A stretch of DNA of 64,000 bases from Tanypteryx hageni (lineage: Eukaryota; Arthropoda; Insecta; Odonata; Petaluridae). The notes beneath the pieces were generated by a model. It ran no database searches and had not been told where the DNA came from. It worked only from the letters and a program-made list of their open reading frames with translations. The stretch is from the NCBI GenBank assembly GCA_028673005.1, contig CM054112.1, positions 192,995,518-193,059,517 of the forward strand. Direction: 5' to 3'. Of this stretch, positions 4,801 through 7,800 are shown one piece after another (positions within the stretch are counted from its first letter, which is position 1; every line of letters starts with the position of its first letter). A program made the position numbers and the translations under genes.

Positions 4801-7800
4801 ATCATCGAGAAAATGGTCAAAATGTGTTCAGGGGACCTCAAAACGTATTTCCATTGAAATCTCGAAATAGATTTTTTTCATGAAAACAATACTTTCCTCT
4901 ATACTGTGTATGGAGAAAGTAAAAAACACAAAAGATCTTGGCATTGAAGTGGCACGATAAGCGTGATGGGTTCATGCTTACTACTATCCAGAAGGGAGTT
5001 GTTGGATAGTGGTAAAAGGGACAACAAAAGAATGGAAAACATTATGAAACCGGATGCCATTTTAGACTGTACCAAAAATGCACTTAGTGAAGCAGACATG
5101 CAAAATGGTTCGGTGGAATGTGTACAGAAATCCATGAAGTGGTACAAGAAAATGTTTCTCCACATTGTTGATGCAACAGTACTGAATGCATATGACTCTT
5201 TCTTATTAAAAATGGCGAATAGAATGTCTTTGAAAATTTTCACTCAAGCTCACCCACGCTGATCCTCTCCCACTAATTATGCACCCGAACAACTCACAGG
5301 GAAGGAGGCAATTTTAAGGCGCTATCTGGAGTTTATGTCAGCAACAGAGAAGAGGGTTAAGCCTCAACAACAGTGTCACGTGTGCATGTATACTAAGAAT
5401 AGGGGAGAAAAAGAAACGCGTTGGTTTGTGTGTTGGGGAGTGCTTTCGAGATTTCCACGCAAAAGTTAAATTTTGATGCAATGAAGCATGTTTTATGTAT
5501 ATTTTGTAATTTTTGCATTGTGGTTTTTAATATTTTGAAAGTTATTTGAAAATAAAATCGTAATAAACATTTTGTAGCAGAATTATTTATGATGGTCGGG
5601 TGAAATCTCATGGATTACAACTCTTAATTGGATAATGGCCTTATTTTTAGGGGTACATCTTATATACCAGAAAATAAGGTAATATCCTACACTTATATAA
5701 AATATTAATCACATTAACCTTTACACTCCAGATTTATTTTAGGGTACAGTGGGTCCCCGGTATTCACAGATTCGGCATTCATGTATTATGGAAGAATGTT
5801 TCGGTATCTGTGGTTTTTCATTTCACTTATTCGTCACTCAGACTACTTGCCGTGGTAAAGTAAAAAGTCAGCATGCACGCTACTTGTTCAACAGTGACTG
5901 CATCATTAAACTCATTTTATTTTATATTCTGGCCTATTTCAGAACCATATAGGATACATTCGGCAGATAAAGATTAAACGTTTTTTAAGTGAATTGTTTA
6001 TGACTTGAAATACTGATTATTTTCCTATTCATTAAGAAGACACATTAGAAACAAGATGATCCAAACAGAACTTATAATGCCTACTTTCCATTTAATCATT
6101 TATTTAATACTTGTATTGGTTTTAATAGCTTTAAAGTCATCACAGATATGTAGCTCTTTGTGTTCCTCAATTTCATAATTTAGCGTTATAAAATACTATA
6201 AATACATTTGAACGGAATATTAAATTGATAACGCGTATTTGTGTGGCAAAAATAACGTGTACGTATTAGAATATACCGAATCTGAGATGAACAATAGTTG
6301 TGGCTATGGCAACACTCTCGTAATGAGTGATAAAAACTGCAAAATTGCCAGTATTTACGTGAAATTCTAAGAAATACAATTGATATGCAAAATTCTATGA
6401 TAAAAATTAGAATCTTCATTCCTTTCCTCAGAGAATAGTATAAAACTCATTCCGATATTACAATTCTAAGATATTTTAATGTGCAAGAGAAAATTATCCT
6501 GCACGATGGATTTCAGATTTTCCATGTAAATCAAATGGAAAGGATAGTTCCTGGAATCGAACCCATGACTTCAATCTTCGTAACAAAAACTATCCTCGGG
6601 AGCTCGGCCCATGTAGCAAGAGATTTCCACCAAGTTTCACGAAAATCAGTCTATTGGTGGACAGACAGACACAATGACAAAACTATAAGCTTATTTCCAT
6701 TCTTGAAAGTAGGCTAAAATACCAATGAAAAAGGGTAAAAAACATTTTGCCTGATGTTAACAAGTACATACTGAGATAAGATACCATTTTGTAAAGAAAT
6801 TTAAGGTTAATTTTCACTTTGTAGAATTTCAATTTCACTCATAGAAAACAAAATTGTATGCCACAATACACAAGCACATCAGTTCAGATGGATAACAAAC
6901 AAAACATTGCAGTAACTTACTTTTGGGTAAATAGGTAGAGACACACACTAAAAACACATTGTTGTTCAAAAAACAAATGTTATTTTTAAATACTTTTTAT
7001 AAGGTTCTTTTCATATTTGTTTCACATGCCATTTCTAAAAGATCAAATAGATTAGATAATAATAAACAAGCTGGTTATATAACAAAGTTTTTAAGGGTTA
7101 TATTGAGAGAATTCTGCATCACTTGGGATATAATTAAAGCAAAGGTAGATCAAAAATATAACCACACTCCAAACAGGGATCCCAAAATTACCTGACCACG
7201 CCTCAAACCAAAATAACGAGATATTGGATCACCCGTTTGCATTCGAGGCAGCTGATTCTCTTTCAGATTACTCACATAAGTTAAGGAAATTATCTTTCAA
7301 TTCAACACCCAGTCTCTAAATGTTGGCAGAAGAATAAAAAAACAATATTTAAGCATAATCCTTTAACTATAATGCTAACCTCGAACAATTGATATAATGA
7401 AGTACACCTAAACTGTAAGACAACATTTATTTATTAAATGCAAATGAATATTTTTTAGGAAACCTACCTGCCCTCTTTTCAATCCAAAATACCTTGCCAC
7501 AGGATCACCAGCTTGGATTCTCATGAGCTGATTTTCTTTTAACTTACTGGTCACACAAGTTAAGGGTTATTCACACAAAATTCACACATTAGTCAATCAA
7601 ACTCCACAAAGAAAAATCACAATTCCAGCAAAGTATAAAATTCTTTAATAATTCAAATGCTAAGCTACAAAAAGTGGATTAAAAGTTAAATAGTTTCATA
7701 TATAAAATAATGGATGAATAGTCAAACACTGACTTAATGCGGCTGTTTATCCTTCAATGATGTTAGCACTTATAAAGGAGGTGGTGGTAAATGGAAATAG

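Follow-up and report, generated by a model that had tools for sequence, protein, structure and literature searches.

Tandem copies of exon 6 in the RPB5 gene of Tanypteryx hageni and the U2/U12 splice-site classes that probably enforce a choice between them

Introduction

Tandem exons of which one is chosen through splice sites of two classes are known from JNK (MAPK8/MAPK9, exons 6a/6b) and from TMEM87A/B (exons 11/11a), and the alternative exons of both, as described in the available text of PMC8329584, carry U2-type acceptors and U12-type donors. The same available text (PMC8329584) describes the Drosophila prospero twintron, in which U2 and U12 sites compete and two isoforms result. For human genes, 5 of 629 mutually exclusive exon clusters are assigned to a U2/U12-incompatible class in the available part of PMC5740500, and in its main text neither RPB5 nor POLR2E occurs.

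The present analysis concerns RPB5 (POLR2E, RPABC1) in Tanypteryx hageni (Odonata, Petaluridae). The window, by which we mean the whole stretch of DNA that was analysed, covers 64,000 nucleotides of contig CM054112.1 (assembly GCA_028673005.1, positions 192,995,518 to 193,059,517). RPB5 is usually regarded as one invariant subunit common to the three polymerases. According to the available text of PMC6690254, the C-terminal module of RPB5 binds, in Pol I, II and III alike, a helix bundle that belongs to the largest subunit, and more than one RPB5 form per organism is found in trypanosomes (RPB5/RPB5z) and in plants, where the form given for Pol V has a different name. Two forms would likewise exist in T. 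hageni, where they would come from alternative exons of a single gene, whereas the trypanosome and plant forms are not exon alternatives of one gene. We take the latter to be encoded by separate genes.

Exon 6 of the T. hageni gene stands in two copies, 6a and 6b, with acceptors that appear to be U12-type and donors that appear to be U2-type. This is the mirror image of the JNK arrangement, in a different gene and in insects. Unlike the prospero twintron, it involves a duplicated exon and no nested introns. The mechanism would belong to the same enforcing class as that of the human U2/U12-incompatible clusters (available text of PMC5740500), and RPB5 would represent a new, mirror-image case of exclusive exons enforced in this way. 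The first-pass annotation had known of no described RPB5 exon-6 alternative. Nor is an RPB5 exon alternative described in the titles and opening abstract lines of the papers that our literature searches listed, most subscription journals lying outside their range. Mentions of POLR2E in the available texts of PMC9467408, PMC9454627 and PMC7841428 are confined to an expression table, an expression/interaction set or a splicing-factor entry, and in the available text of PMC10835012 RPB5 occurs only within the name of an interactor.

Results and Discussion

The window carries a complete RPB5 coding region on its minus strand, with seven exon positions, one of which is filled twice. By exon and frame reading and a protein search of the genome, exon 1 (from the ATG) lies at 11903-11959, exon 2 at 11743-11831, exon 3 at 11571-11632, exon 4 at 11363-11502 and exon 5 at 11147-11286, the last ending in CGATA ahead of a putative U12-type donor. 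Exons 6a (7468-7546) and 6b (7192-7270) were placed by exon and frame reading, with PF01191 (RPB5_C) scores of 31.2 and 32.0 bits, respectively. Exon 7, including the stop codon, was read at 1769-1834, its acceptor being taken as U2-type. The identity of the gene is given by PF01191 and by 209 of 210 residues shared with a Ladona fulva model once its 6a is connected directly to exon 7. In the PDB, the 6b peptide has matches to RPABC1 chains.

The two copies of exon 6 had been reported by the first-pass annotation, and its description proved correct to the base. Each copy is 79 nt long, preceded by AG and followed by GT, and in the same phase; 25 of 79 bases and 7 of 26 residues differ between them, with nine synonymous codon changes. 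The flanking exon ends that it had named, 11147 and 1834, are right as well. Separated by 197 nt, 6a and 6b are similar tandem exons that fill the same place in the protein, which is the pattern of mutually exclusive exons. The further claim that the frame needs exactly one exon 6 also stands. Either 6a or 6b alone yields a complete RPB5 of 210 aa. Inclusion of both reads CAG|TAA and stops at the first 6b codon, and skipping of both reads CGA TAG and stops at the junction of exons 5 and 7.

RPB5 appears to be single-copy in this genome. A whole-protein search of the 1.68 Gb genome returned eight matches, one for each exon of this gene with both copies of exon 6 counted; a search with PF01191 returned four exon pieces above the Pfam cut-off, all in this gene; and the DNA stretch with both exons had one match. 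A haplotype or assembly copy was rejected as the origin of the second exon, because the two exons differ so much in sequence (25/79 bases) and are separated by 197 nt, and because the stretch that holds them has a single location in the genome. A second RPB5 gene as the source of the variant was not found in the whole-genome protein search. Retrocopies, as a trace of spliced 6b messages, were not found either: PF01191 and the isoform-B protein match only the exons of this gene in genome searches in which the best candidates alone were scored.

Then, which signals flank the two exons? Intron 5 looks like a minor-class (U12-type) intron. Its 5' splice site GTATCCTTT (11138-11146, minus strand) agrees with RTATCCTTT at 9 of 9 positions and contains RUAUCCUU, as U12-type donors do, and the remaining six donors of the gene agree at 2 to 5 of 9. 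It is the only GTATCCTTT among the 6399 GTs on both window strands. When scored against the U2 pattern GTRAGT, the donors of 6a (CAG|GTAGGT, 7462-7467, minus strand) and 6b (CAG|GTAATT, 7186-7191, minus strand) each match at 5 of 6 positions and the exon 5 donor at 3 of 6. Exon 5 ends in TA, and both 6a and 6b end in AG. An AG is disfavoured before U12 donors in the available text of PMC10853781, which also supplied the U12 consensus letters.

Over the branch motif TTCCTTRAC, 6b has TTCCTTAAC with 9 of 9 positions and 6a has ACCCTTAAC with 7 of 9, and the other five acceptors reach 5 or 6. The candidate branch site of 6b, TCCTTAAC (7280-7287, minus strand, 9 nt upstream of the exon), fits UCCUURAY at 8 of 8 positions; that of 6a, CCCTTAAC (7559-7566, minus strand, 12 nt upstream), comes close with 7 of 8. 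Among the 6941 AGs of the window, a 9/9 match stands at a fitting distance before 4 and a match of 7/9 or better before 343, so a 7/9 score is weak by itself. Only 5 of these 6941 AGs, including those of 6a and 6b, have YCCTTAAC upstream at a suitable spacing. The putative 6b branch site is distinctive alone and the 6a branch site mainly through the exact CCCTTAAC. As counts in the window, the motifs do not exceed shuffled sequence (2 vs 2.35 for RTATCCTTT and 3 vs 4.22 for YCCTTAAC); they are informative by position and not by frequency. The flanks upstream of 6a and 6b share CCTTAACTT(A/G)TGTGA, and so the exon was apparently duplicated together with its acceptor.

The exon 7 acceptor reaches 5 of 9 at its best U12 branch match. 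Its assignment to the U2 class follows from the lack of a U12 branch motif and from the U2-type donors that precede it. Pyrimidine content does not separate the acceptor classes: 12 and 13 of 20 positions are pyrimidines at 6a and 6b, and 9 to 16 at the others, exon 7 being lowest (9). By consensus scores alone, the alternative exons are flanked by sites of opposite classes, as JNK-type exons are. According to the available text of PMC10853781, some U12 acceptors can be used by either spliceosome. In the intron between 6a and 6b, the AG at 7316-7317 (minus strand), with a pyrimidine-rich stretch before it, is a possible cryptic U2-type acceptor. Joined to 6a, it could yield an extended 6b in a shifted frame, with a stop at 204 aa.

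The genome carries matches to the RNAs of the minor spliceosome, namely U12 (111.4 bits), U6atac (99.7 bits) and two U11 (93.3 and 84.2 bits), and so has genes of all three kinds. The U12 match contains GTAAGGA (by eye, on the reverse strand) and the U6atac match a stretch with AAAGGA, both of which suit the sites described above. Intron 5 is presumably removed by the minor spliceosome. Polr2e is among the mouse genes with affected U12 introns in the available text of PMC7312986; insects would thus not be alone in carrying a U12 intron in this gene, identity with intron 5 not being implied.

Both exon copies are under constraint. A Nei-Gojobori comparison of 6a and 6b gave a pS of 0.83 (14.2/17 sites; saturated, dS not computable) and a dN of 0.20. 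When 20,000 neutral copies of 6a were simulated, each with 25 changes, a stop arose in 64% and in no copy were the residue changes as few as seven, so that 6b is poorly explained by chance. With 31 RPB5 sequences aligned, out of 221 fetched, six columns of exon 6 are invariant (R172, D177, P178, R181, Y182 and G184), and both window exons keep them all. None of the seven substitutions falls at an invariant column; I173M, in 6b, lies at a nearly invariant one. The predicted structure of a 6b isoform from Lycorma has pLDDT blocks of 94, 91 and 91 over the exon, which suggests that 6b fits the RPB5 fold, and nothing more.

A degraded 6b in close relatives had been named in the first-pass annotation as an outcome that would count against it, and none was seen. 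The Ladona fulva (dragonfly) model P0002 contains 6a with 27 of 27 residues, including the junction Y, and 6b with 26 of 26. The model strings both exons together with 16 intron-read residues between them, and outside the exon 6 copies it differs from the window RPB5 at one residue. The intron residues of Ladona end in ..SLTILS and those of the window, read in the same frame, in ..SLTYVS. SLT fits a branch site TCC TTA ACN, and its distance to 6b is equal in both species, with neighbouring residues that differ (codons read by hand). The Ladona model alone thus suggests the branch site outside the window species.

Exons of the 6b type are also present in Lycorma, Anabrus and Schistocerca records. 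'Isoform X2' of Lycorma delicatula (P0003) and 'isoform X2' of Anabrus simplex (P0122, 178 aa, with an unusual N-terminus), both predicted proteins, run from exon 5 through a 6b-type exon to exon 7. Each has 22 of 26 residues as in the window and they have 23 of 26 in common; 6a partners of the two were not seen in the database clustered at 90%. In 'isoform X1' of Schistocerca americana (P0098, a cluster of 4), 6a is followed by a second exon out of frame. All 26 positions of that exon agree with a 6b-type peptide, and 5 of the 26 conflict with a 6a-type one. The frame of the last exon is shifted in this predicted message, giving a different C-terminus. The model may reflect real leakage, an acceptor changed to U2-type or a prediction fault. 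Because it joins 6a and 6b, exclusivity may not be strict in all lineages.

At the two most diagnostic positions, the combination of T and I is present in 4 of 220 exon-6 stretches, those of Ladona, Lycorma, Anabrus and one protein with MMETSP among its sources. The 220 stretches come from 219 of the 221 fetched proteins, two having no motif, and do not count the out-of-frame Schistocerca exon. The sample is biased, because 6b-type queries were used, and one of the searches listed 120 of 1619 matches. At least four other insect genera have 6b. The representatives of Nesidiocoris and Timema are of the 6a type, and there are many further LMRIQ entries among the matches listed. A lack of 6b elsewhere means little, since clustering at 90% normally hides 6b behind a 6a representative. 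The 6a exon is less changed between insects and is identical in the Ladona, Nesidiocoris and Schistocerca records.

Ladona (a dragonfly) belongs to Odonata, Schistocerca (a grasshopper) and Anabrus (a katydid) to Orthoptera, and Lycorma (a planthopper) to Hemiptera. Unless the same residues arose repeatedly, the 6b duplication would predate the split of these three orders, which took place about 400 million years ago. The 6b exon has a proline (LPR), as do 163 of the 220 stretches, and 6a has a methionine, as do 57; the recognisable named entries with methionine at this position are arthropods. Either the 6b proline is a reversion or the duplication is older still. In two barnacles, P0015 (Pollicipes) and P0016 (Amphibalanus), the exon-6 region has LPRIQ and GLRRGQ, unlike other crustacean entries, e.g. 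Scylla and Eriocheir, which have LMRIQ; the barnacle residues could be a reversion or an old exon choice.

The two-exon arrangement is real, old and constrained. To account for it, we propose that an ancestral RPB5 exon 6, located behind a U12-type intron, would have undergone a tandem duplication that included its U12 acceptor. The single U12-type donor at the end of exon 5 could then pair with either of the two U12-type acceptors, that of 6a or that of 6b, and for the U2-type donors of 6a and 6b the sole partner would be the U2-type acceptor before exon 7. Joining the U2 donor of 6a to the U12 acceptor of 6b would be barred, as would joining the U12 donor of exon 5 to the U2 acceptor of exon 7. 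Because of this incompatibility of classes, each message would hold exactly one of the two exons. Splicing slips in this species would meet an immediate stop. The products would be two RPB5 isoforms of 210 aa, set apart by seven residues of the C-terminal module, with which RPB5 binds the largest subunit of each nuclear polymerase (Pol I, II and III). We consider it probable that the U12 donor, the two U12 acceptors and the U2 donors enforce the choice of exon 6 and give two isoforms. The first-pass annotation had attributed exclusivity to the reading frame alone; a stronger cause would lie in the splice-site classes. The isoforms are presumably both made in this species, and the choice between them is presumably regulated. 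Against a strict reading, the 6a branch is imperfect, and the Schistocerca and Ladona models contain both exons.

If 6b were a non-functional or barely used relic of duplication, 6a alone would matter. The 6a-type representatives of Nesidiocoris and Timema, the many LMRIQ entries and the smaller change of 6a between insects would suit such a relic. We nevertheless regard it as very unlikely, since synonymous positions are saturated at a dN of 0.20, 6b has no stop and a perfect U12 branch site, and it is retained in full in Ladona and in kind in the Lycorma, Anabrus and Schistocerca records. A role of 6b as an autoregulatory or poison exon in place of a second protein isoform is hardly credible. 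It would agree with the stop at the junction when 6a is joined to 6b, but 6b alone keeps the frame and encodes a conserved RPB5 segment, and a poison exon needs neither peptide nor frame conserved.

Both exons could also be functional and be kept apart by a trans-acting regulator, RNA structure or decay only, the U12 signals being uninvolved. The stop upon double inclusion lies 76 nt upstream of the last junction, as would suit nonsense-mediated decay; 6a and the 6b-type exon stand together in the Schistocerca X1 model; and the 6a branch site reaches only 7/9. The donor and branch signals, however, match the minor class at the decisive places, and the 541-nt stretch with both exons folds no better than its shuffles (z 0.31). 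Local RNA structure was rejected as a cause for lack of signal in these 541 nt, a stretch that stops short of long-range pairing across the 3.6-kb intron. On balance, exclusivity by such means in place of the splice-site classes seems unlikely.

Exon 6 lies within the C-terminal module of RPB5 (yeast 143-215), and the 6b peptide aligns to yeast 170-193. Since this is the module that binds the largest subunit, the isoforms would most likely define two polymerase populations that differ in the grip of RPB5, by tissue or by enzyme. The isoforms presumably differ in function; redundancy of the two is possible. We advance only tentatively, and with more doubt than belief, the wider idea that winged insects, since before the dragonfly/orthopteran/hemipteran split, build two kinds of nuclear polymerase differing in the RPB5 module, with the minor spliceosome choosing between them. 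If so, minor-spliceosome activity would set the polymerase variant that is assembled, by tissue or among Pol I, II and III, and the minor spliceosome would gain a specific regulatory output. A conserved swap of this kind would mean that certain animals produce the core enzymes in two versions, both through one gene. The mirror-image relation to JNK suggests that an exon beside a U12 intron can turn exclusive at the moment of its duplication, and new exclusive exons could arise in this simple and testable way.

The window holds several other features. Intron 5 of RPB5 contains, on the plus strand, a tRNA-like gene at 10158-10230 (Ala ggc by ARAGORN; Rfam tRNA, 67.3 bits), adjoined by a diverged, inverted second copy recognised by eye, and, on the minus strand, a transposase-like open frame at 8844-9530 that is mariner-like by eye and has a weak Pfam match, HTH_32, below the cut-off. 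Upstream of RPB5, two direct repeats of about 180 bases lie at 13058-13238 and 13650-13834 on the plus strand, with blocks that are 85, 90 and 96% alike. They are H/ACA-snoRNA-like by eye, both end blocks finishing in CCACA, and neither was matched when the window was scanned with Rfam. A tRNA-Trp (cca) was called by ARAGORN at 24498-24570 on the plus strand, below the Rfam gathering score. On the minus strand, a single open frame at 34991-35764 encodes a matrixin (M10) and a peptidoglycan-binding-like domain, and a LINE-like endonuclease frame at 38337-39395 is adjoined by a weak PHD/C1-like frame at 39663-40346.
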